NCBI RefSeq assembly: GCF_019972295.1
Contig: NZ_BLJA01000001.1
Location: 1,611,927 to 1,651,926 of the forward strand
Direction of reading: 5' to 3'
Length of the DNA: 40,000 nucleotides
Source of the DNA: Geobacter sp. AOG2
Lineage (GTDB): Bacteria > Desulfobacterota > Desulfuromonadia > Geobacterales > Pseudopelobacteraceae
Below the pieces are notes generated by a model. The model made no database searches, was not told the DNA's origin, and was given only the letters and a program-made list of their open reading frames with translations. The translations under genes were made by a program, and so were the position numbers. Below are positions 2,544 through 14,767 of the stretch, piece after piece. Position 1 is the first letter of the stretch. Each line of letters begins with the position of its first letter.

Positions 2544-2586
2544 TGTGATTTTTATCACAAACTTTAGGTTGGCTTGCTGTTATAAA
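2544..2586 (+). promoter_or_regulatory. Class II CRP-type promoter: TGTGA-N6-TCACA site plus -10 box
   Basis: TGTGA (2544-2548), six bases, TCACA (2555-2559) is a perfect CRP/FNR-family palindrome centred at 2551.5. TATAAA at 2581-2586 has its centre exactly 32 bp downstream, which places the site at -41.5 relative to a start near 2593 (class II geometry). No good -35 hexamer is visible, as expected for an activator-dependent promoter. The same geometry occurs at 6089-6131. The likely binder is the CRP homologue encoded at 8927-9637. Confidence 0.75.
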
Positions 2587-2604
2587 TAATACAAAATTAA
2601 ATAT

Positions 2605-2719
2605 GGTAGACGATAATACTAAACCATTCGCGAGAATGGGACGGAAAGCCCATTGGGTCTCTTTGAGACAGCCGGGTCGCCGAAATACCTCAATAGGTAG
2701 TTGGCTACCCGGCTTTTTA
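2605..2719 (+). ncRNA. GEMM-I (c-di-GMP-I / cGAMP-type) riboswitch with overlapping terminator
   Basis: The aptamer has the GEMM hallmarks: AAACC at 2621, a P2 stem CCATTC/GAATGG closed by a GCGA (GNRA) loop, GGACGGAAAGCC, a second stem GTCTC/GAGAC, and the core AGCCGGGTCGCCG (from 2670). The base I align with Vc2 G20 is A, the change reported for Geobacter riboswitches that bind 3',3'-cGAMP. The core AGCCGGGT (2670-2677) is complementary to ACCCGGCT (2707-2714), which is followed by TTTTT. Folding of the aptamer therefore excludes the terminator, which predicts an ON switch. The gene begins 22 bases later. Confidence 0.9.
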
Positions 2720-2740
2720 CGTTTCACAAAGGAGAACAGA

Positions 2741-5700
2741 ATGAACAAAAAACTCGAGAATCTTAAATTCGTGTTTGGCTTTATCGTCTTTCTAATGTCT
2801 GTTTCTAATGCAGTTGCAGCGGACAAAGTAATTCAATCGACCGACCTTACTTATATAGGCGCATTTCGCGTACCGAGTGGAACCTATGGGGGCAGCGACG
2901 ATACAAAATATTCGTTCAATTACGCCGGGTTTGCCATGCCCATAGGGGTTGCCTACAATGCCGCTAATAATTCCCTGATCATGTCGGGGCATGGGAATAA
3001 CTCGTATGTCGCAGAGATTAATATCCCGGCAATAGTAAACAGTTCGAATATCAGTGCCTTGAATATCGCGACAGTAAGGCAAAACTTTACGGATGTGTCC
3101 AGGGGGCATCATGTCTTCACCAATGAAGGGCTGATTATTGGTGGTTTTCTTGTTTATAACGGGAAGTTGATTGTTGGCGCAACCGATTATTATGCTTTTG
3201 ATAACGCCCAGGAGACGTGGAGCCACTTTGTCAACTCGAACGCAAACAGCCTTGCCACCGGGACCTTTGCCGGAGACTACACGGTAACGAGTACAGGCAA
3301 CGGTGGCCCGCCTGTTTCTATCTCCAACGAATATATGACTACGGTCCCGGATAACAGCAGCAGTGGCGGCACGAACTGGCAGACGGCTTTGGGTGGGACG
3401 GTGTTGGCGGGCGCCATGTCGCCCAATATCGTTTCGCGGACGTCCTTAGGCCCTGCGGCAGTCACCTTCAATCCCGACAATTTCAGCAGCAATACGCCGC
3501 ATAATGTGCTCATGTATTGGCCCGGAGATGGATCGCATAGTCCGGCTGATTCCGTTTTCGTCGGTAGCGGTTTAGGTGAAGGCCGGTTATTCTGGAACGG
3601 CTCGACCCAATTAAATGGAGTGGTCTTCCCGAATGGGACCAAGACCGTTCTGTATTTTGGGAATACCGGCACGGGAACCACTGTCTGCTACAAAAACGGC
3701 AATCCCACAGCCTGGGGGTGTGACGCCATCGTAAACGGAGATACCGCACGGCCGGTAGGGGCTTGGGACATTCATGCCCCCACGTATCGCAACCAGATTT
3801 GGGCGGTAAACGCCGATGACCTTCTTGCCGTAAAGAATGGCAGCAAAAACCCGTGGGATATAACGCCGGCCATATGGCCCATATCATCTCCCTTCGACAC
3901 CTCCGAACACTTCATCGCCGGTGCAGCGTACGACCCTGCCACCCAGCGGATATATGTTGTTGAAGGTAAGGCTGAAAGCGGGAAATTACCAATCGTGCTG
4001 GTTTATCAGGTGAATGCGAGCAGCGCATCTGCTGATGCCACCGCACCAACGATAACCTCATTTACTATGCCGGCAAGCGCATCATCGAATACAGTTGCTG
4101 TTACTTCTCTTTCGGCAACGGATAATGTCGCGGTAACCGGCTACTGTACAACATCCACCAATAGTTCATCTGGCTGCAGTTGGTCCGCGTCGCCTCCTGC
4201 AACGGTGTCTTTCCAGAGTTCTGGGACTCAAACGGTTTACGCTTGGGCAAAAGATGCCGCTGGCAATGTCAGTCAGCCGGCAACTGCAACCGTGACGGTT
4301 ACCATAGCATCGTCGGATACCAGTGCTCCCACGGTTCCTGCTGCTCCGTCAGTAACATCTGTTTCTTCAACTCAGGTAAATCTTTCCTGGACCGCATCAA
4401 CAGATAATGTTGGCGTGTCTGGATATAAAATATACCGGAACGGAACCCAAGTAGGGACATCGACTGCCACCACTTATCAAGATACGGGGCTTACTCCAAA
4501 TACGGCATATTCCTATACTCTCTCGGCATTCGATGCTGCCAGTAATGTGTCTGCCAAATCAAGCGCAACCAGCGTAACTACGAGCGCGATTGTAACAACT
4601 TCGACTTACAATGGTTTTGCGTGCAACGCGTCGACACTCCCCATAACCGGAACTCGCATTGTAAACGTTTCGACAGAGCCGCAACTGCAAACAGCAATTA
4701 GTAATCTTCAATCCGGAGACACCATCGTGCTGGCGGATGGAACATACAACCTGACCAAGTCCATTGTTATAAATGGTATCAGCAATATTACACTACGCGG
4801 CAATACCGGCTGTGACGGTGTTGTGCTGACGGGACAAGGTATGGACAACTCAGGCGGAGTGGGAATAGGTATATGGTCATCATCTTCAAACACCACGGTA
4901 GCCCATCTGACTATTAAAAACACTTACGACAATGCCATAACTTTCGATGCTGGAGCCCAAAGCCCACATGTTTACAGTGTGAAGTTGATTGATATAGGAT
5001 CGCAATTCATCAAGGGCAACCCCACGTATAGCGGCAGTAATGTGGTTGGAGGAGTCAATAACGGGATTGTGGAGTACACATGGGTTGAATATACAAATGG
5101 GGGCCCGGCAACGGATCATGGAGCTGGAGCAGGATATTTTAACGGTATCAGTCTGCATGGATCAAGTGGCTGGCAGATTAGGAAGAACCTATTCAAAAAC
5201 CTGCATAACCCGGACTCGGCCGCGTGGTGGTGGAACCCCGCAGTGCTCACATGGAATCATTCCAGCAATACAGTAACGGAACAGAATGTCTTTATTAACT
5301 GTGACAGGGCTATTGCTTATGGCCTGGAAGTACCAACAACCACAATTGCGTCGCCAATGACCGTTGCTACGGACCACTCAGGGGGGGTAATCAGAAACAA
5401 CTTTGTCTATATGCAGCCCAATTATCTCAGCTCAGCTCGTAAAGCCGATTCTGACGCGCAGATACTGGTTTGGGATTCTCCATCAACATTAGTGTACCAT
5501 AATACAGTATTGGCAAATGGAAACGTTACCAGTAGCGTAGAAGCGCGTTTTTCAACAACAGGTGCTCAGGCTAAAAACAATTTAGTAGATACTCAAATCA
5601 GAGCAAATAGAGACGGTGGGACGTTTACTCTAAGTGGTAACTATGCTAGTGCTGCTACAGGAATGTTCCTTAATTCAGCTATAGGTGACTTACATTTAGT

Positions 5701-5881
5701 GGATAACGCATCAACAGAAGCTAATGTTATTCATAAGGTTACAGCACCTGCTTCAGCTACAACAGATTTTGATGGAGATGCCAGGCCGTCGGGAGCTAGT
5801 TCTGATATAGGAGCTGATCAATTCGTTTCTGGAAGTTTTAATGTTGCTCCAGCTGGGCTTACGGGAACTTGGAGTAAGTAA
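2741..5881 (+). CDS. Secreted multidomain protein with Fn3 and right-handed beta-helix domains
   Basis: 1046 residues from the ATG at 2741, which has AAAGGAG 6 bases upstream; upstream in-frame starts lie inside the riboswitch. A signal peptide (MNKKLENLK, hydrophobic stretch, SVSNAVAA) is followed by about 400 residues I do not recognise, perhaps propeller-like. Then come one repeat domain shared with the next gene (ending YAWAKDAAGNVS, DNA about 4030-4310), an Fn3 domain (NLSWTASTDNVGVSGYKIY), and a C-terminal region of pectate-lyase/parallel beta-helix type (SGDTIVLADGTYNL, then NITLRGNTGCDGVVLTG). Such helices bind or cleave polysaccharide; no catalytic residues could be assigned. No PEP-CTERM or dockerin tail is present. 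The last 450 bases are visibly more AT-rich than the rest. Expression should need both the CRP-type activator and the riboswitch ligand. Confidence 0.88.
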   Translation: MNKKLENLKFVFGFIVFLMSVSNAVAADKVIQSTDLTYIGAFRVPSGTYGGSDDTKYSFNYAGFAMPIGVAYNAANNSLIMSGHGNNSYVAEINIPAIVNSSNISALNIATVRQNFTDVSRGHHVFTNEGLIIGGFLVYNGKLIVGATDYYAFDNAQETWSHFVNSNANSLATGTFAGDYTVTSTGNGGPPVSISNEYMTTVPDNSSSGGTNWQTALGGTVLAGAMSPNIVSRTSLGPAAVTFNPDNFSSNTPHNVLMYWPGDGSHSPADSVFVGSGLGEGRLFWNGSTQLNGVVFPNGTKTVLYFGNTGTGTTVCYKNGNPTAWGCDAIVNGDTARPVGAWDIHAPTYRNQIWAVNADDLLAVKNGSKNPWDITPAIWPISSPFDTSEHFIAGAAYDPATQRIYVVEGKAESGKLPIVLVYQVNASSASADATAPTITSFTMPASASSNTVAVTSLSATDNVAVTGYCTTSTNSSSGCSWSASPPATVSFQSSGTQTVYAWAKDAAGNVSQPATATVTVTIASSDTSAPTVPAAPSVTSVSSTQVNLSWTASTDNVGVSGYKIYRNGTQVGTSTATTYQDTGLTPNTAYSYTLSAFDAASNVSAKSSATSVTTSAIVTTSTYNGFACNASTLPITGTRIVNVSTEPQLQTAISNLQSGDTIVLADGTYNLTKSIVINGISNITLRGNTGCDGVVLTGQGMDNSGGVGIGIWSSSSNTTVAHLTIKNTYDNAITFDAGAQSPHVYSVKLIDIGSQFIKGNPTYSGSNVVGGVNNGIVEYTWVEYTNGGPATDHGAGAGYFNGISLHGSSGWQIRKNLFKNLHNPDSAAWWWNPAVLTWNHSSNTVTEQNVFINCDRAIAYGLEVPTTTIASPMTVATDHSGGVIRNNFVYMQPNYLSSARKADSDAQILVWDSPSTLVYHNTVLANGNVTSSVEARFSTTGAQAKNNLVDTQIRANRDGGTFTLSGNYASAATGMFLNSAIGDLHLVDNASTEANVIHKVTAPASATTDFDGDARPSGASSDIGADQFVSGSFNVAPAGLTGTWSK

Positions 5882-5904
5882 TTAACCATCTTGCAATAGG
5901 TAAA

Positions 5905-6025
5905 ATGAGGTGGACGAAAATTCTAAATAATCCTTGAGGGTTGGACGGAAAGCCTACGGGTTTTCTTCAAGATAGCCGGGTCGCCGAAATGCCAGAATGG
6001 TGTAGCGGGCCCGGCTTTCCTTTTG
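5905..6025 (+). ncRNA. Degenerate GEMM-I riboswitch copy (upstream tandem unit)
   Basis: It aligns along its length with the unit at 6152-6265. The 3' part is nearly identical (core AGCCGGGTCGCCG, then ATGCCAGAATGGTGTA, then CGGGCCCGGCT), while the aptamer 5' half has diverged. The conserved AAACC is AAATA, the position aligned to Vc2 G20 is T, and the GNRA loop of P2 is TTGA. P2 (TAATCC/GGGTTG) and P3 still pair through wobbles. No CRP site or -10 box lies at the expected distance upstream, so it can only be read from the preceding gene. It is probably a decayed duplicate or a simple attenuator. Confidence 0.7.
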
Positions 6026-6039
6026 ACTTATATCCAATC

Positions 6040-6080
6040 AGAACCAGGTTGCAGAAAATCGCACCCAGGCTTTTTTAAGT
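6040..6080 (+). terminator. Decayed terminator hairpin of the upstream unit
   Basis: An imperfect hairpin with at least two internal mismatches precedes TTTTTT at 6071-6076. It occupies the position of the clean hairpin at 6282-6317 in the downstream unit and looks like a degenerate copy. It may still end transcription from the gene at 2741. Confidence 0.45.
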
Positions 6081-6088
6081 AGAATTTC

Positions 6089-6131
6089 CGTGACGCAAGT
6101 CACATACCAATTCGGACTGAGCCTCTATAGT
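6089..6131 (+). promoter_or_regulatory. Second class II CRP-type promoter
   Basis: CGTGA-N6-TCACA (6089-6104, one mismatch to the CRP consensus, centre 6096.5) is followed by TATAGT at 6126-6131. The centre-to-centre distance is 32 bp, exactly as in the promoter at 2544-2586. The predicted start is near 6138. The riboswitch AAACC follows the site centre by 68.5 bp, against 69.5 bp at the first unit. Confidence 0.72.
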
Positions 6132-6148: not shown

Positions 6149-6265
6149 GGTACACGATAATACTAAACCATCCGCGAGGGTGGGACGGAAAGCCTACAGG
6201 GTCTCCTTGAGACAGCCGGGTCGCCGAAATGCCAGAATGGTGTAACGGGCCCGGCTATCTTTTTG
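6149..6265 (+). ncRNA. GEMM-I (c-di-GMP-I / cGAMP-type) riboswitch with overlapping terminator
   Basis: An intact aptamer: AAACC at 6165, P2 CCATCC/GGGTGG with a GCGA loop, GGACGGAAAGCC, P3 GTCTC/GAGAC, and core AGCCGGGTCGCCG from 6214. The base aligned with Vc2 G20 is A, as in the first riboswitch, which favours 3',3'-cGAMP (inference from published Geobacter variants). AGCCGGG (6214-6220) pairs with CCCGGCT (6250-6256) to make a terminator followed by ATCTTTTT. Ligand binding should therefore prevent termination. Confidence 0.9.
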
Positions 6266-6341: not shown

Positions 6342-8327
6342 ATGAACACAGGAAACGAAACGAGAACAGGAGATGTTGTGGTGATCAAGCCATTCTTGGT
6401 CATGATATTCACCTGGATTCTTTTCCTCGCTAGCCAAAGTATTTGTTTTGCGACCACAGTGACCCTTCAATGGGATGCAGTCTCCGACAGTACCGTTTCT
6501 GGGTACAAGGTATATTACCAAGCCGATTCGTCTGTGCAGCCTTTTGCCGGGACTGGATCTACCCAAGGTGCTTCGCCAGTCGATATCAGTAACCAGACTA
6601 CGGCGACAATCAGCGGTCTTGATCCGGCCCATTCATACTATTTTGCAGTAACTGCTTATAATACTGCCGGTGTAGAAAGCCCATATTCAAATACCTTTTA
6701 TGTTCCAGAATTGACCGCGCCGACGATTTCTCTTAGCTATCCGGCTAACAATACTACTGTTTCAGGGACGATTTCAGTAACCGCCAGCGCTTCCGATAAT
6801 GTCGGAGTAGCTAAGGTCGAATACTATGTTAACGGCATCCTTGCGGCAACAGACACATCGGCTCCGTATGTTTATTCATGGAACACCTCGGCACTTGCAT
6901 CCGGTACCTATACCTTGATGGCAATGGCCTATGACGCCGCTGGCAATATTGGACAATCCAGTAACGTTTCCGTGACAGTCGTCAACGATACGGCTTCTCC
7001 TACAGTATCAGTAACTGCACCGAGCAATAATGCCACCGTGTCTGGAGCAGTGACAATCTCTGCTAGCGCCAGTGATAATGTCGGAGTAAGCAAAGTTGAG
7101 TTTTACGAAAATGGCACACTCTTGTCCGCCAGTAACGTGGCTCCTTTTACCTACAATTGGAATACTACTACCGTCTCTAATGGTACATATACCTTGTCAG
7201 CCAAAGCCTACGATGCAGCAGGCAATGTCGGCCAATCATCAAATGTCTCCGTAACGGTAAATAATACCGTTTCTGACACGACGGCCCCGATGGTCAGCGC
7301 CTTTACGCTGCCTACTACGGCAACTTCTCTGACCGTGGCGATCTCCTCCTTTAGCGCGACCGACAACGTAGCCGTGACCGGCTACTTGGTAACGCAAAGC
7401 TCGACCGCGCCGTCGGCTTCGGCTAGCGGCTGGACCAGCACCATCCCGAGTTCATTCACTTTCTCAGCTGCAGGCAGCAAGACCGCCTATGCCTGGGCCA
7501 AAGATGCCGCCGGCAACGTCTCGGCCGCGAAGAGCGCCAGCGTGACCATCACCCTGCCTGACACGACGGCCCCGACGGTCAGCGCCTTTACGCTGCCCAC
7601 CACGGCGACCTCCCTGACCGTGGCGATCTCCTCCTTCAGCGCGACCGACAACGTGGCCGTGACCGGCTACCTGGTAACCACAAGCTCGACCGCGCCGTCG
7701 GCTTCGGCCAGCGGTTGGACCAGTACCATCCCGGCCTCATTCACCTTCTCGGCTGCGGGCAGCCAGACCGCCTACGCCTGGGCCAAAGACGCAGCCGGCA
7801 ACGTCTCGGCCGCGAAGAGCGCCAGCGTGACCATCACCCTGCCTGACGCAACGGCTCCGACGGTCAGCGCCTTTACGTTGCCCACCACGGCGACCTCCCT
7901 GACCGTGGCGATCTCCTCCTTCAGCGCGACCGACAACGTGGCCGTGACCGGCTACCTGGTAACCACAAGCTCGACCCCCCCGTCAGCCAGCGCCAGCGGC
8001 TGGACCAGCACCGTCCCGACCTCGTTCACCTTCTCGGCCTCCGGCAGCCAGACCGCCTACGCCTGGGCCAAAGACGCAGCCGGTAACGTCTCGGCAGCCA
8101 AGAGTGCTGGCGTGACGATCACTCTTTCGAATACATCAAGTTATACTGTCAGCGATGCTTTGCTGGCGCTCCGGATTGCAAGCGGCAAGCTGACTCCGAC
8201 TTCAGCCCAACTGACAAGTTTGGATGTGGCCCCCGTGGTAAACGGTCAGTCGGTTCCGGATGGCAAGATTGATCCTGGGGATGTTATCGTGATCATGTCG
8301 AAGATAGTTGGAAAAACTATCTTGTAA
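6342..8327 (+). CDS. Secreted Fn3/Ig-like repeat protein with C-terminal dockerin-like domain
   Basis: 661 residues from the ATG at 6342, with AGGAG 7 bases upstream. An N-terminal signal or anchor segment (PFLVMIFTWILFLASQSICFA) is followed by an Fn3 domain (VTLQWDAVSDSTVSGYKVYY), two bacterial Ig-like domains (each with SDNVGV.KVE and YDAAGN.GQSSNVSVTV), and three tandem 95-residue repeats encoded by 285-bp units. The last 63 residues look dockerin-like: VSDALLALRIASGKL, then a calcium-loop-like PDGKIDPGDVIVIMSKIVG. The first half of the dockerin lacks an obvious calcium loop. Dockerins normally dock onto cohesins, and the next gene is a candidate partner. No enzymatic domain is present; a structural or adhesive matrix role is inferred. 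It is controlled by the CRP-type promoter and the riboswitch upstream. Confidence 0.88.
   Translation: MNTGNETRTGDVVVIKPFLVMIFTWILFLASQSICFATTVTLQWDAVSDSTVSGYKVYYQADSSVQPFAGTGSTQGASPVDISNQTTATISGLDPAHSYYFAVTAYNTAGVESPYSNTFYVPELTAPTISLSYPANNTTVSGTISVTASASDNVGVAKVEYYVNGILAATDTSAPYVYSWNTSALASGTYTLMAMAYDAAGNIGQSSNVSVTVVNDTASPTVSVTAPSNNATVSGAVTISASASDNVGVSKVEFYENGTLLSASNVAPFTYNWNTTTVSNGTYTLSAKAYDAAGNVGQSSNVSVTVNNTVSDTTAPMVSAFTLPTTATSLTVAISSFSATDNVAVTGYLVTQSSTAPSASASGWTSTIPSSFTFSAAGSKTAYAWAKDAAGNVSAAKSASVTITLPDTTAPTVSAFTLPTTATSLTVAISSFSATDNVAVTGYLVTTSSTAPSASASGWTSTIPASFTFSAAGSQTAYAWAKDAAGNVSAAKSASVTITLPDATAPTVSAFTLPTTATSLTVAISSFSATDNVAVTGYLVTTSSTPPSASASGWTSTVPTSFTFSASGSQTAYAWAKDAAGNVSAAKSAGVTITLSNTSSYTVSDALLALRIASGKLTPTSAQLTSLDVAPVVNGQSVPDGKIDPGDVIVIMSKIVGKTIL
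7275..8129 (+). repeat. Three tandem 285-bp coding repeats
   Basis: The units begin at 7275, 7560 and 7845, each starting with an Asp codon before ACGGC(C/T)CCGA. The second and third are nearly identical at the DNA level. They are more GC-rich than the flanking domains, which suggests recent duplication or gene conversion. A diverged single copy of the same domain lies in the gene at 2741. Confidence 0.9.
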
Positions 8328-8367: not shown

Positions 8368-8400
8368 AAGGCGACTTTGAAAAAAGTCGCCTTCTTATTT
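8368..8400 (+). terminator. Rho-independent terminator after the dockerin gene
   Basis: The perfect 11-bp stem AAGGCGACTTT/AAAGTCGCCTT (8368-8393) is followed by CTTATTT. It ends the 6342 transcript and rules out translation starts upstream of 8422 for the next gene. Confidence 0.8.
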
Positions 8401-8421
8401 CTGAATTGTAGGGGATTGAAC

Positions 8422-8919
8422 ATGAGGTTATTAACTCTTTTATCAGCTGCGATTGGTCTTCAAATTATGGTGATTTCAGGCTGCGGTGGGGGCGGGGGGA
8501 GTGGTAGTAGTAGTGGGAGTACCACTAAAACGGCGACACTCGTTTTTTCATCATACAGTACCAGAACTCTGATAGGAGGTTTTGCCTTGACGGTAACCCT
8601 GCCCAAAGAGGTCACCGTCAAAACAGACAGTACTGGTGCACCACTTTCGTCGGTTATCTATTTATCAGGGCAATTTTCTGGTTCATTGCCCAGCGCAGGC
8701 GTTACTTATGATACCGAGTCAAGCGCATCTAACCAGCTGATAATTGTCGATGGAAGTTCATCAGGTTATGCAGGAGAATTCCTGACCATCCGTTGTGATG
8801 TCCCTGTTAGTTACACACCAAACATTAATGATATTAACTATAGCGCTTCTTTCTGGTCCAGCGATCTCAATAACGTAGGTGTCTTGCCGAATGCCTACGC
8901 AAAAGCGACATTCAATTAG
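8422..8919 (+). CDS. Small lipoprotein, possibly cohesin-like
   Basis: 165 residues from the ATG at 8422, with AGGGG about 8 bases upstream. The N-terminus MRLLTLLSAAIGLQIMVISGC carries a lipobox (ISGC), followed by a Gly/Ser linker and about 125 residues of predicted beta-strand character. I do not recognise the family with certainty. Features such as IGGFALTVTLPKEV near the start and GEFLTIRCDVPV later resemble cohesin-type beta-sandwiches, but this is weak evidence. Because the gene just upstream ends in a dockerin-like domain, a role as its outer-membrane anchor is an attractive inference. It lies behind a terminator and converges with the CRP-family gene, leaving only 7 bases between the two stop codons. 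Confidence 0.75.
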   Translation: MRLLTLLSAAIGLQIMVISGCGGGGGSGSSSGSTTKTATLVFSSYSTRTLIGGFALTVTLPKEVTVKTDSTGAPLSSVIYLSGQFSGSLPSAGVTYDTESSASNQLIIVDGSSSGYAGEFLTIRCDVPVSYTPNINDINYSASFWSSDLNNVGVLPNAYAKATFN

Positions 8920-8926
8920 TCGGTTG

Positions 8927-9637
8927 TCAGGTACTCCTGTGTCTCGCATAAAAGGCTTTGGTCAATAAAATAGATTTATTGTCCAAGGCTTGAATCATTG
9001 TGTCCTTTTCCAGCTTATTAAGTATCCTTGTCACGGTTTCTCTCGCGACTGACGCGTAACTAGCGATCTGCTGGTGCGTGAGTTTCACATTGATAATGGT
9101 TCCCCGGTCATCCATAACTCCATACAAATCCTGCAATCTGTCAAGCACAGCCATCACACGATGCTCGGCATTGTCGAAACTTAAGATCTTGATCATAGCC
9201 CAAGAGTCGCGGAGCCGGTCACACAATAGGCCGATTATCTTATGGCGGGTTGCATCGTTATTGAGAACGAAGCGCTCGAAATCTGATTTGGAAAGAAGTC
9301 CGATGACCGCCTCTTCGTAGGCAATAACGGTGGCTGGTGAGGTCTTGCCGTCAAGCAACGCCATCTCACCGAAGAAGTCGTTTTTTTTGTGGATGCTGAT
9401 AATCTGTTCTTTGCCATCTTCATTAATTTTGGCGACCCGTACCTTGCCGGAATAGACAAAATACATATATTTGGCTGTATCTTCTTCATTAAGCACGATC
9501 TGGTTCTTGGCATAGCGTTTTTTGACGATAAGGCCTTCAATCAAGCTGATTTCTTCAGAAGAAAGTCCCGAGAAAAAAGGGATGTTCTTGATGATATTGT
9601 TATCCAGTTTCTGTCGTAGGTCTGCCTTCCAGATCAT
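8927..9637 (-). CDS. CRP/FNR-family transcriptional regulator
   Basis: 236 residues from the ATG at 9637, with GTGAGG 6 bases upstream; the GTG at 9649 is too close to that site. The N-terminal half is a cyclic-nucleotide-binding fold (about 20-140) with FFGEMALLDGK at the phosphate-binding cassette. The Arg-Ser pair that contacts cAMP phosphate in E. coli CRP is replaced by Ser-Pro (GKTSPATV, 98-104), so cAMP binding is doubtful. No FNR-type cysteine cluster is visible. The C-terminal winged helix (about 186-210) has the recognition helix RETVTR (199-204), which keeps the Arg, Glu and Arg that read TGTGA in CRP (RETVGR). Such sites lie before the genes at 2741 and 6342, so this is the likely local activator. 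Confidence 0.92.
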   Translation of the reverse strand: MIWKADLRQKLDNNIIKNIPFFSGLSSEEISLIEGLIVKKRYAKNQIVLNEEDTAKYMYFVYSGKVRVAKINEDGKEQIISIHKKNDFFGEMALLDGKTSPATVIAYEEAVIGLLSKSDFERFVLNNDATRHKIIGLLCDRLRDSWAMIKILSFDNAEHRVMAVLDRLQDLYGVMDDRGTIINVKLTHQQIASYASVARETVTRILNKLEKDTMIQALDNKSILLTKAFYARHRST

Positions 9638-10086
9638 TTTGTACCTCACTCATGGCATTAAAGAGCACCGCTCACATGGCATGATGGCCGCTTTTTATTT
9701 TTGTCCCTCGCCTTGAAACAGTACAATTTTTATGCAAGATATTCGTCACTTGTGGGAAGAGAATATTAAATTGAAATGGTTACTCATTAATTATATTTAA
9801 AGAACTTCATTTCTTTATAGTATCATCTTTCTATCGTTTGGCAACTACTCCTTGAATCCTATCTGTTTAAATAAGCAAATAAGTAATGTATTATACGGAT
9901 GAATCTGGCTAAAAATAGCTGCCTGGACGTGGATAATGGTGGCCGTAGACGGAAATCGGGGAACAAGCGGTCTCATATGCAACGGATGAAATCTGTCTAA
10001 CGCTGGTATTTTGTGCTGTACCTCTCCTGTAGGAATCCCTTATTTATTATAGTAACTTAGCCTGCTTTTTTTCTTTTTCGTGACCG
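9638..10086. other. Gene-poor stretch upstream of the CRP-family gene
   Basis: AT-rich, about 450 bases. It must contain the minus-strand promoter of the CRP-family gene, but I cannot place it. A 33-codon plus-strand frame at 9899-10000 is rich in Arg and Lys and has no known relatives to my eye. No repeat or RNA gene was seen. Confidence 0.5.
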
Positions 10087-10789: not shown

Positions 10790-10963
10790 ATGAAATATTT
10801 TTTTAGAAAAAGGAACCGAATATGTGTGAACAGAGTTACAGAAATGCGTGGAATAAAGGGCTGTGTACTTATCGGTAAAGGCTTTGGTTACGAGTCTGTG
10901 AGACCGCCCCTGATGTTGGGTTGGACCGCTTTCACTGATCGTGGGTATCGGTGGGTAAAATAA
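10790..10963 (+). CDS. Small basic ORF with strong ribosome-binding site, unknown
   Basis: 57 codons beginning MKYFFRKRNRI and ending RGYRWVK. TAGGAGGG at 10781-10788 is a near-perfect Shine-Dalgarno but lies only 1 to 2 bases from the ATG, closer than usual. The peptide is basic with no signal peptide or clear helix and matches no family I know. It sits 68 bases before the exosortase gene and could be a leader peptide or a chance frame. Confidence 0.25.
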   Translation: MKYFFRKRNRICVNRVTEMRGIKGCVLIGKGFGYESVRPPLMLGWTAFTDRGYRWVK

Positions 10964-11031: not shown

Positions 11032-12570
11032 ATGACATTGAGCGAAGCATGCAAACAGTACAAGGCACATTTCCTGATTGTTATCCCCTTGCTTGTCGGG
11101 CTCTATTTCAGGGTTGTACCCGACATGGTCAGTGACTGGGCAAAGGACGATAATTATTCCCATGGGTTCCTTGTCCCTTTTATCGCAGGATACTTTCTCT
11201 GGCATCGATGGCCCAGTTTAAAGGATCGGAAAGTCAGCCCGAACAGCTATGGTCTGGTGGTGGTTGCTCTGGGAGGGGTTCAACTGCTGATGGGTTGGCT
11301 GGCATCAGAGTACTTTATGATGCGTTCCTCCCTGATCGTCGTCCTGGTTGGGCTTGTACTCTTCTGGTTTGGTCGGGACATTCTGAAATGGATGGCACTG
11401 CCTTTGGGGTATTTGATCTTCATGGTACCGATCCCCTATATTATTTACGACATGCTTGCTTTCCCGTTGAAATTGTTCGTAACAAAAGTTTCGGTTGGAT
11501 TCCTACGGCTTGTTGGTGTCATCGTATTGAGGGAAGGAAACATCATCATGTTTCCGTCCACAACTCTTGAGGTTGCCGACGCATGCAGCGGCATCCGGTC
11601 ACTCATGTCCCTTCTAGCGTTGGCGGTCGCCTATGCCTTTTTCGTGCAGACATCAAATGTCAGACGTTGGTTCATTATCGTTGCAGCTGTACCGGTCGCC
11701 ATTGCTACAAACGCCTTGCGGGTTATTATCACCGGCTTTCTGGCCCAGTGGTGGGGGGCTAAGGCGGCGGAAGGTTTTTTTCACGAATTTGCCGGAATGG
11801 TGGTATTCTTGCTCGCAATTGTACTTTTGGTGGTGGTGGGCTTATTGGTAAAGGGGAGGCTTGAAAATGTCGAGGGAGCGGCGTATTCTGCTATCCCATC
11901 ACCCGTTCCGACCGCTACTGCCGAGCCGGCGCCTGCTCCGCGCCTGCAAAGCTATTATGCTGTATTTACCTTGCTGTTTGGCGTAGCACTTTTTATAAAT
12001 CTGCATAGTGATGTCTCGGTACCTCCCAACCGCCCCTTCAACGAATTTCCGATGCAAGTAAAGGCATGGCAGATGGCGGGGCAATCCGAATTCAGCGCCA
12101 ATGTTCTCAGTGTTCTCAAACCGACAGATTATCTCTATCGCCAGTACAAAAATGCTGACGGCAAGGTAGTGGGGCTTTATATCGGTTTCCATGGCGGAGG
12201 TAAGGAGAGCGGGGAAATACATTCTCCCCGAAATTGTCTGCCGGGAAGCGGTTGGTACGAAATATCCGCGAAGCGTGGCACTCTGGAGATTCCCTCCGGA
12301 GGAAGCGTAAAACTGGTGCGCAGTGTCTACCAGAAAGGCGAAAACAAGGAGTTGTTCCTCTATTGGTTTCAGGCTCGCGGGCATTCAATGAATGACGAGT
12401 TTTCTCTCAAGCTTGCTGAAATGACCGGTTCATTGTTTTATCGACGCCGCGATACCTCGTTCATTCGTGTATCCGTGCCGTTCGAAGGTGATGACTCTTC
12501 GGCGCTTTCCAGAGGAGAACAGTTTGTGCGCGATATAACCCCGACGATCCAGGAGTTCCTCCCGCAATAG
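11032..12570 (+). CDS. Exosortase fused to a C-terminal EpsI domain
   Basis: 512 residues; start ATG at 11032 with GGAG upstream. The first 290 residues are a multispanning exosortase with the hallmark DNYSHGFLVP (40-49) and the proposed catalytic triad Cys185 (EVADACSGIRS), Arg230 (ATNALRV) and His251 (FFHEFAG). A Pro/Ala linker leads to an EpsI domain (about 315-512) with the HSPRNCLPGSGW motif (397-408). Exosortases cleave PEP-CTERM proteins at the inner membrane and are thought to transfer them to exported polymer. EpsI is often a separate gene; here it is fused. The nearby substrate has a standard VPEP motif, so XrtA-like specificity is inferred, although fused EpsI is also known from the XrtD subtype. 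It heads a cluster with prsK and prsR. Confidence 0.93.
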   Translation: MTLSEACKQYKAHFLIVIPLLVGLYFRVVPDMVSDWAKDDNYSHGFLVPFIAGYFLWHRWPSLKDRKVSPNSYGLVVVALGGVQLLMGWLASEYFMMRSSLIVVLVGLVLFWFGRDILKWMALPLGYLIFMVPIPYIIYDMLAFPLKLFVTKVSVGFLRLVGVIVLREGNIIMFPSTTLEVADACSGIRSLMSLLALAVAYAFFVQTSNVRRWFIIVAAVPVAIATNALRVIITGFLAQWWGAKAAEGFFHEFAGMVVFLLAIVLLVVVGLLVKGRLENVEGAAYSAIPSPVPTATAEPAPAPRLQSYYAVFTLLFGVALFINLHSDVSVPPNRPFNEFPMQVKAWQMAGQSEFSANVLSVLKPTDYLYRQYKNADGKVVGLYIGFHGGGKESGEIHSPRNCLPGSGWYEISAKRGTLEIPSGGSVKLVRSVYQKGENKELFLYWFQARGHSMNDEFSLKLAEMTGSLFYRRRDTSFIRVSVPFEGDDSSALSRGEQFVRDITPTIQEFLPQ

Positions 12571-12712
12571 ATATTCGGGTCGGCTTAGGGCAGGGCGCCG
12601 CCACATTTGAGATTGGTGAAAATGTTTATGGAAGAAAATTTCAAACCGGCAGTGGCCGTTTTGGCCGAAAGATATATGATGATTATCTCGGATTAATAAT
12701 CGGATTTGCATT

Positions 12713-14767
12713 ATGAGCATGGGTAGCATTGTCATAACGATTATTGCGATAATTTCACTGTTGTTCTCGGGTGTCTGGACTCTGCTCCGGGAACGCCATC
12801 ATAGGGGGCTTTTCCTTTGTGCAGCCCTTGTTGTTACTGCACTCCTTGAGTTGTTCGATTTATTAGCTCTTACGAGTGGCATGGATGCAATCTTCTGGAA
12901 AAAGTGTGCACTCTTTGCTGAGGCCTTTTTGCCGTCATTCTGGATTCTCAGCAGTTTAACCTACGCCCGACAATCAGGTCCTTGGAAGATAGGGCGCTTG
13001 CAGCAGGGGTTGATTGTCGTTACTTTTTTGTTCTGTTTTATCCCCATGATGTTCCCAATGAGCGCCTTTTTCTATGCCCCGGATTTTCCTGGTGAACACC
13101 TCCTCTTTCTAGGAAACACCGGATTCTACTATTACCTTGGAATATTGGCCTGCCTGGTGTTTACCTTGGTAAATTTTGAGGTAACGCTCGTAAATGCATC
13201 ACCTGACGCTCTCTGGCAAATCAAATTGGACATCATTGGTCTAGGCACCATTGTGACGGTTCTTGCGTTCTATTTCAGCCAAGCTCTCTTATACAGAACG
13301 CTTAATATGAATTATATTTCGCTCCGCTCGACCATGATTATTGTTGCAGTAGCCATGATCTCCTATTCCAAGTGGTACCGACGTGGTCGAGTCCAGATTC
13401 AGGTCTCCCGTCAGGTAGCGTTCAAATCTTTCGTCCTTTTTGCCGTTGGCTTATATTTAATTATGCTTGGCTTGTTAGGCGAAGGGATGAGTTATCTGGG
13501 AGGGGCTTTTACCCATTCCATGACCATCTCTCTTGCATTTCTGGCCGGGGTAGCCCTTTTGATCCTGCTTCTCTCTGAGAGATTCCGACGGGAAGTCAAG
13601 GTCGTACTGCACAAAAATTTTTATCAGAATAAGCATGATTACCGAGCTCAATGGCTTCGTTTTACGGAGCAACTCTCCACTTCAATGTCAGGTGAGGAAC
13701 TTCTACAGCGAATACTTTATGCATATTGCGACATATTTGGGATGGGTGGGGCTACTCTGTTTCTTTACGAGGAGGAAGAAAAAGGATACTGCGCGAAAGC
13801 GGCCTACGAAATGGACCCGATATATGATGTAATCAGCTCAGACAATATGCTTGTCGGCGTTATGAAGAAACAGGGCTGGGTGATTAATGTGAAGGACTGT
13901 GACGAAGTAATCAAAGGAGAATATAGCCATTTTCTTGAAGCAAATAGCATATCATTTATCGTTCCGCTTTTTAATGGTGAGCGCCTCGAGGGATTTATTA
14001 CATTAGGGCGTATAATTAAAGAGGATGAAGTTTATATTTATGAAGATTACGATTTGATGAAAACCATTGCCCGCCAAGCTTCTCAGGCCATACTACACCA
14101 TCGCTTCTCCGAGCAGATTGCCCAGGCACTTGAGATGGAAGCTATCAATAATGTCGCTACATTTGTGGTGCATGACTTGAAAAACCTTGTGGCGACTCTT
14201 TCGCTTATCATTGATAATGCAACCAAGTATATGCCAAATCCTGATTTTCAGAAGGATATGCTGACATCTTTGGGAAACACAGCTGAAAAGATGAGAGCTT
14301 TGATCGGTAGGTTGAAAAATTTGGGGGATAAAAACCTTTATAACGTTCATTCCGTCGATCTCCTCGATCTAGTTACCAAGACCGCCAATTTGGTTGCGGC
14401 TGGGAGAATAGCCGTGTCGGGAAAAGCTGAGAATATTATCGCAGATGGTGATGAAATCCAGAAGGTAGTCATGAATCTGTTTGTCAATGCCGTAGAGGCA
14501 TCAGACCATGAGCGGCCTATACAAGCTGAAGTAGGAAATCAATCTGGCGCGTCTTTTATCCGAGTTACGGATGAGGGATGTGGTATGTCGGACGATTACA
14601 TCCGCACAAAGCTGTTTAAGCCTTTCAAGTCTACCAAAAAACAGGGGCTTGGGATTGGTCTTTATCAATGCCGTAAAATTATTGAAGACCATGGAGGAAG
14701 GATTGAGGTCAGTAGCAAGGAAGGAAGTGGGTCAGTTTTTACGGTATGGTTTCCCCTTGGTATGTAA
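12713..14767 (+). CDS. prsK: PEP-CTERM system sensor histidine kinase PrsK
   Basis: 684 residues. The N-terminal 300 residues form about eight membrane helices, followed by a GAF domain (about 319-462) and a kinase core. The H-box is VVHDLKNLVATLS with His487; the N-box is VVMNLFVNAVEAS; G-boxes are DEGCGMSDD and GLGIGLYQCRKIIEDHGG. This architecture matches PrsK, the kinase associated with exosortase/PEP-CTERM loci, and the length fits. The ATG at 12713 has only a weak ribosome-binding site; the ATG at 12719 is also possible. It presumably phosphorylates PrsR encoded 50 bases downstream. The signal is unknown. Confidence 0.93.
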   Translation: MSMGSIVITIIAIISLLFSGVWTLLRERHHRGLFLCAALVVTALLELFDLLALTSGMDAIFWKKCALFAEAFLPSFWILSSLTYARQSGPWKIGRLQQGLIVVTFLFCFIPMMFPMSAFFYAPDFPGEHLLFLGNTGFYYYLGILACLVFTLVNFEVTLVNASPDALWQIKLDIIGLGTIVTVLAFYFSQALLYRTLNMNYISLRSTMIIVAVAMISYSKWYRRGRVQIQVSRQVAFKSFVLFAVGLYLIMLGLLGEGMSYLGGAFTHSMTISLAFLAGVALLILLLSERFRREVKVVLHKNFYQNKHDYRAQWLRFTEQLSTSMSGEELLQRILYAYCDIFGMGGATLFLYEEEEKGYCAKAAYEMDPIYDVISSDNMLVGVMKKQGWVINVKDCDEVIKGEYSHFLEANSISFIVPLFNGERLEGFITLGRIIKEDEVYIYEDYDLMKTIARQASQAILHHRFSEQIAQALEMEAINNVATFVVHDLKNLVATLSLIIDNATKYMPNPDFQKDMLTSLGNTAEKMRALIGRLKNLGDKNLYNVHSVDLLDLVTKTANLVAAGRIAVSGKAENIIADGDEIQKVVMNLFVNAVEASDHERPIQAEVGNQSGASFIRVTDEGCGMSDDYIRTKLFKPFKSTKKQGLGIGLYQCRKIIEDHGGRIEVSSKEGSGSVFTVWFPLGM

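Follow-up and report, generated by a model that had tools for sequence, protein, structure and literature searches.

We examined a 40,000-nucleotide stretch of the genome of Geobacter sp. AOG2 (assembly GCF_019972295.1, contig NZ_BLJA01000001.1, positions 1,611,927 to 1,651,926; hereafter the window, whose coordinates are used throughout), in which each of two neighboring genes follows a putative CRP-type operator and a riboswitch aptamer of the GEMM-I family. Gene 1 (2741..5881) encodes a protein of 1046 amino acids (aa) with one fn3 domain, and gene 2 (6342..8327) encodes a 661-aa protein with fn3 and bacterial immunoglobulin (Ig)-like repeats; both proteins are adhesin-like and, by eye, carry an N-terminal signal-like segment. 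Behind gene 2 lies an open reading frame (ORF) for 180 aa (8377..8919) with no match in Pfam or NCBIfam. Convergent with these two on the reverse strand is a gene for a CRP/FNR-family regulator (8927..9649), which we designated RegW. The two genes, the ORF, and the promoter and riboswitch features described below are all on the forward strand.

At class II CRP-dependent promoters of E. coli, the operator TGTGA-N6-TCACA is centered at position −41.5, 32 bp from the center of the −10 box. The operator before gene 1 (2544..2559, TGTGATTTTTATCACA) matches this palindrome without a mismatch and that before gene 2 (6089..6104, CGTGACGCAAGTCACA) with one. Their centers, at 2551.5 (predicted −41.5) and 6096.5, lie exactly 32 bp from the centers of the −10 boxes TATAAA (2581..2586) and TATAGT (6126..6131), from which transcription is predicted to start near 2593 and 6138. 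A −35 box is absent from both promoters, the −35 position being occupied by the operator's own TCACA, so that the window shows both the spacing and the missing box of a class II promoter. The original prediction had placed both operators at these positions and both −10 boxes at this spacing, which the window sequence bears out. It had also called the two promoters identical, although their −10 boxes differ, and its distance of 68.5 to 69.5 bp from operator center to riboswitch is that to the AAACC core; the aptamers as delimited by Rfam start at 56.5 and 55.5 bp.

Both operator-linked aptamers (2608-2684, 44.4 bits; 6152-6228, 43.0 bits) exceed the cut-off of 35 bits of the Rfam c-di-GMP-I model RF01051, by which we defined GEMM-I membership, as does a third aptamer absent from the original prediction (5912-5988, 35.3 bits). 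The best model for the window aptamers in a low-threshold Rfam scan was RF03167, at a score under its own cut-off. Position 20, which we take to be position 11 of the Rfam model from the published numbering, is A in the 2608 and 6152 aptamers, the mark of the GEMM-Ib type, and U in the 5912 copy. Excerpts of a report on a relative of these riboswitches assign selectivity for cyclic GMP-AMP (cGAMP) to A20 and for cyclic di-GMP (c-di-GMP) to G20 (PMC6456294). On the base at this position we rejected c-di-GMP as the ligand of the 2608 and 6152 aptamers; the predicted ligand is cGAMP. In predicted folds of both elements, the 3′ strand of the aptamer enters a terminator hairpin (expression platforms at approximately 2669..2720, with the terminator AGCCGGGU...ACCCGGCUUUUU, and approximately 6213..6262), an arrangement expected of ON switches. 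The 5912 aptamer begins 30 nucleotides (nt) past the gene 1 stop codon, lacks its own operator, and duplicates the 6152 element in tandem, terminators included. We speculate that it could stop gene 1 transcripts or pass them on into gene 2; its U20 and further base changes may reflect decay.

A possible source of cGAMP is encoded in the same genome. Of 33 GGDEF matches, 30 were retrieved, and the selectivity position was readable in 25, with Asp in 23, Thr in one (L228), and Ser in one (L221, at C1:1990461). According to parts of the same report, Ser at this position marks a Hypr GGDEF protein, and deletion of a cGAMP synthase gene lowers expression of the genes behind GEMM-Ib riboswitches (PMC6456294). 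L221 is thus a candidate Hypr enzyme, predicted to make cGAMP.

In the window by itself, palindromes of this kind are no more frequent than chance predicts (9 with at most two mismatches, against 14.5 expected). The genome (3.92 Mb, one contig) contains 4 perfect sites and 49 with at most one mismatch, against 25 for a reversed-pattern control. Its GEMM-I matches number 16 (7 A20, 7 G20, the U20 copy at 5912, and one unclear), and three of them are preceded by a site with at most one mismatch whose center lies 54.5 or 55.5 nt from the aptamer; the expectation for a 70-nt window is 0.014 (P about 5e-7). All three of these aptamers are A20; the third cassette, at C1:2613753, carries a perfect TGTGA-N6-TCACA at the same distance.

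The same association appears in a sample drawn without regard to the operator, comprising 129 aptamers (121 A20, 8 G20) matched by pattern with at most two mismatches in 14 other genomes of the family. In the region 38-110 nt upstream, 17 of the 129 have a perfect site, 4 a site with one mismatch, none one with two, and 108 three or more mismatches. The reversed pattern gave 0 perfect and 1 one-mismatch site there, and the best of 29 permuted half-site palindromes gave 1. The 21 site-bearing aptamers are all A20 and are spread over 9 of the 14 genomes. Searching the genome_contigs collection with the composite pattern (operator followed by aptamer) yielded 38 matches at 35 loci, of which 37 were kept and one (L034) was dropped as a chance match; they come from Geobacter-type genera, Desulfuromonadales, Deltaproteobacteria, and one Proteobacteria metagenome-assembled genome. 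Viral contigs searched with this pattern gave 0 matches. Among 138 genomes of the order, a strict form of the composite occurs 87 times, in 53 genomes and 15 of 29 genera, whereas its reversed control occurs in none. On the counts in the genome, the site-blind sample, and the 138 genomes, and on the P value above, we rejected a chance origin of the palindromes. The original prediction had argued that chance agreement of the two window promoters was improbable, had read them as one regulatory cassette reused for different extracellular proteins, and had called for a search beyond the window; the third genomic copy, the strict matches, and the fixed 32-bp spacing all support it.

The composites precede a distinctive set of genes. 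Among the first genes behind them (48 after de-duplication), fn3 domains are found in 31, Big_7 in 26, and Big_13 in 25, and many are related to the 661-aa product of gene 2. The first genes behind sample aptamers without a site include 9 of 69 with fn3 and 3 of 69 with Big_13, and cytochrome, YkuD, and SPOR families are present among them; in both groups, first genes were called crudely, some of them wrongly (e.g., those of 72 aa and 166 aa). The fn3 difference is significant (P about 9e-9), with the qualification that the composite group includes loci chosen by the composite itself, so that the groups were drawn differently. The 69 site-less genes were kept from 80 after leaving out 5 from loci outside the sample and 6 second entries of tandem pairs, and the 1 of 161 aptamers with a two-mismatch site was placed in neither group. 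Proteins with three or more CXXCH motifs number 0 of 57 behind composites versus 6 of 92 elsewhere. Composite targets are mostly fn3/Ig-like proteins, unlike the targets of other such riboswitches.

RegW is the most likely regulator of the operator, as judged from its sequence, distribution, and location. It belongs to the CRP/FNR superfamily (cyclic nucleotide monophosphate [cNMP]-binding domain PF00027, 87.6 bits; Crp-type helix-turn-helix [HTH] domain PF13545, 46.6 bits) but is not CRP proper, scoring 79.5 bits against a cut-off of 266 with the NCBIfam CRP model. The cAMP-contacting Arg is absent (FGEMALLDGKTSPATV at the Arg-Ser of the phosphate-binding cassette), and the 10 closest aligned relatives likewise have no Arg at the cAMP-phosphate position. 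Class II promoters of E. coli have the same operator geometry and a different regulator. RegW has a CRP-like DNA-reading helix (RETVTR) but is probably not a cAMP receptor. Five proteins of the genome combine a cNMP-type domain with a Crp-type HTH; L069 (RETVTR) and L070 (RETVSR) also have CRP-like recognition helices, L067 has SETISR, and L071 is unlike the others. The motif RETV[TS]R is common to the 19 aligned relatives and paralogs.

Relatives of RegW with at least 44% identity are present in 50 of the 53 genomes with a strict composite versus 28 of the 85 others, an association that persists within genera (z 6.2, and z 4.3 at 50% identity), although related genomes are not independent in these counts. 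At the genus level, relatives occur in 15 of 15 composite genera versus 5 of 14 others. In 21 of the 37 genomes having both a composite and a relative with at least 50% identity, the two lie within 10 kb of each other; these genomes represent 8 genera, and the count is a lower bound because many assemblies are fragmented. None of the 33 proteins with 44-50% identity lies within 10 kb of a composite. The original prediction had singled out this regulator as the one to examine for binding, and its co-occurrence and linkage with the cassette favor that choice, whereas a CRP-like response to cAMP is improbable.

It is possible instead that another CRP-family protein (C1:3741013 or C1:1380967), or several such proteins, binds the operator and that RegW is a mere neighbor. 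Both paralogs have RETV[TS]R helices, and genome G118 carries a composite and has relatives only at 34-36% identity. The linkage of composites in 21 genomes, set out above, is with relatives of RegW having at least 50% identity; among the matches listed, paralogs with 32-38% identity show no such linkage, the nearest lying about 18 kb away (G019), and three genomes with composites (G071, G119, and G121) have no relative with 32-38% identity among the matches listed. We consider this alternative unlikely. HcpR is not favored as the regulator, by motif and by helix: it belongs to the CRP/FNR family and has a similar consensus in Desulfovibrio, TTGTGA-N6-TCACAA, but it controls hcp, sat, apsAB, and similar genes, as given in excerpts of PMC545781. 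The same excerpts describe a Desulfuromonas form of HcpR that reads another motif and has Arg180 replaced by Ser or Pro, to which the SETISR protein L067 is closer than RegW is (PMC545781).

The spacing of the operator bears on how it might act. Aligned on the site center, columns 30-33 to its right are A, T, A, and A in 30, 24, 30, and 24 of 37 loci, a consensus that places a −10 box 32 bp from the site. Across 50 distinct instances, a −10 score of at least 3 is reached at 32 bp in 17, compared with 0 to 6 at any other distance from 18 to 59, and the best −10-like hexamer in the range of 22-45 bp lies at 31-33 bp in 26. The distance from site to aptamer core, meanwhile, varies from 61 to 107. 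Because the 32-bp spacing is held while the aptamer distance varies, the operator is linked in position to the promoter and not to the RNA, and the fixed spacing matches what is predicted for a class II CRP-family promoter. The distances of 106-107 are measured from the outer site at L117 and L130, where a single aptamer has two perfect sites upstream, 41 bp apart; the inner perfect site is 65-66 from the aptamer core and has GATAAA at 32 bp. Many −10 boxes of composites are GATAAA or GATAAG, in which the usual T is missing at both ends, as would be fitting for promoters that depend strongly on an activator.

A CRP-family protein over the −35 region could also block transcription, in which case the operator would be a repressor site. 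The operator does cover the −35 position, the sign of regulation is not given by sequence, and repression is possible for proteins of this family, as excerpts of PMC545781 indicate. Yet an exact 32-bp spacing and a missing −35 box are what class II activation requires, and site-less riboswitch promoters of the same genome (L010, L011, and L014) carry TTGACA −35 boxes. We therefore infer activation and regard repression as improbable. Finally, that a duplicated promoter-leader was merely copied along with related fn3/Ig genes and kept by descent rather than for regulation is very improbable: many downstream genes are indeed related to the 661-aa protein and tandem copies exist, but the site and −10 box stay while the spacer sequence and the site-to-aptamer length differ, promoters orthologous to the third copy retain TGTGACGG[C/G]CGTCACA despite changed flanks and spacer, and G117 and G122 have an aptamer of another subfamily behind the site and its −10-like hexamer at 32 bp.

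We propose that the cassette acts as a two-step AND gate, in which an activator licenses initiation and cGAMP licenses elongation, and we consider this reading of the sequences probable. RegW or a close relative would bind TGTGA-N6-TCACA at −41.5 and recruit RNA polymerase to a class II promoter that has a −10 box and no −35 box. The transcript would start with the GEMM-Ib aptamer. Without cGAMP, the 3′ strand of the aptamer would join the terminator hairpin and transcription would stop; with cGAMP, the aptamer would retain this strand and the gene for the secreted fn3/Ig-like protein would be transcribed.

Several observations weigh against this proposal. Because 108 of the 129 sample aptamers lack such a site, the cassette is a minority arrangement, and in 24 of the 50 instances the best −10-like hexamer lies outside 31-33 bp. 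Three genomes (G101, G118, and G120, two of them <90% complete) have a composite but no relative of RegW with at least 44% identity, 28 genomes have a relative and no strict composite, and RegW shares its type of helix with two paralogs of the genome. The neighborhoods of RegW relatives are also divided. We inspected 20 neighborhoods of the 37 unlinked relatives with at least 50% identity (13 of 21 in composite-free genomes, 7 of 16 in composite genomes), and 6 of the 20 support the class II reading while the remainder do not. Four of the six (G029, G030, G038, and G039) have an aptamer preceded by a site whose right half is degraded (1 or 2 mismatches) and by a −10-like hexamer at 32 bp. The other two (G117 and G122) have, linked to RegW, a relative of gene 2 that is preceded by a site (0 and 1 mismatch, respectively), a −10-like hexamer at 32 bp, and a G20-type aptamer. 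In G020, the aptamer just behind RegW has a perfect site 108 nt upstream, not the class II distance; G031, G036, and G042 have aptamers and no good site at that distance; and in the other 10, three of which are cut by contig ends, no GEMM-I element was detected by the aptamer pattern or by Rfam.

The G20-type aptamers (GGUAAACC; two in tandem at L237 12758-13054 in G117, and L236 10328-10486 in G122) also bear on the view that composites occur only with A20. The G20-type core pattern had 1 match in 138 genomes, but these aptamers are invisible to it, and the view is weakened accordingly. Since the G117 and G122 promoters precede G20 rather than A20 aptamers, the RNA half of the cassette would seem exchangeable. 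A broader claim follows this line: that extracellular adhesin-like genes throughout the lineage are controlled in series by a CRP-family activator not responding to cAMP and by a cyclic-dinucleotide riboswitch, as an AND gate with a conserved promoter half and an exchangeable RNA half. We hold this wider claim to be evenly balanced between true and false.

In Geobacter-type bacteria, cGAMP signaling is known to switch on extracellular electron transfer genes. Excerpts on the GEMM-Ib (3′,3′-cGAMP) regulon of G. sulfurreducens describe the same A20 aptamers, terminator-type ON switches, tandem copies, extracellular gene products, and a Hypr GGDEF enzyme; the targets there are cytochromes, transpeptidases, and pili, whereas composites here precede fn3/Ig proteins (PMC6456294, PMC8835794). 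These excerpts make no mention of a CRP-type operator or of a second input for that regulon, and the word "crp" has 0 occurrences in the main texts of PMC6456294 and PMC8835794. In the leader of Vibrio cholerae gbpA, also an extracellular-protein gene, a CRP site lies upstream of the GEMM-I element Vc1; as described in part of that report, this is a single gene with cAMP-CRP and a c-di-GMP element, and its inhibition by c-di-GMP is independent of Vc1 (PMC4545359). In the open-access literature searched, we found no description of a cassette that recurs with fixed geometry and comprises cGAMP-type aptamers, a candidate non-cAMP regulator, and targets of its own. Each layer is already known.

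If the proposal is correct, a protein input in series with the riboswitch on other secreted fn3/Ig genes would subdivide the regulon at the promoter, and a testable regulator is named. On the wider claim, the cGAMP regulon would have a respiratory branch without such a gate and a matrix branch gated by the activator. Dozens of Geobacter-type bacteria share this apparent double lock, in many cases close to the gene of the probable activator. The many natural copies offer material for studying promoter-riboswitch coupling and the change of aptamer type under a kept promoter.

Some further sites and neighboring genes were noted. At L019 (1501-1516; G000:C1:2632655-2632670), a perfect intergenic site precedes a gene for a secreted serine-hydrolase-like protein, with GATAGT about 33 bp away and no riboswitch, and this gene is a possible RegW target outside the riboswitch set. 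The perfect site at L020 lies inside a coding sequence and was taken as a chance match. Relatives of the 180-aa ORF product are encoded beside RegW in G117 (L237) and behind a composite gene in L065. Next to RegW, the window (11032-14767) encodes an exosortase with an EpsI domain and a PrsK-type histidine kinase, and a further site with one mismatch (TGTGAACAGAGTTACA, 10825-10840) lies upstream of the exosortase ORF at 11032.

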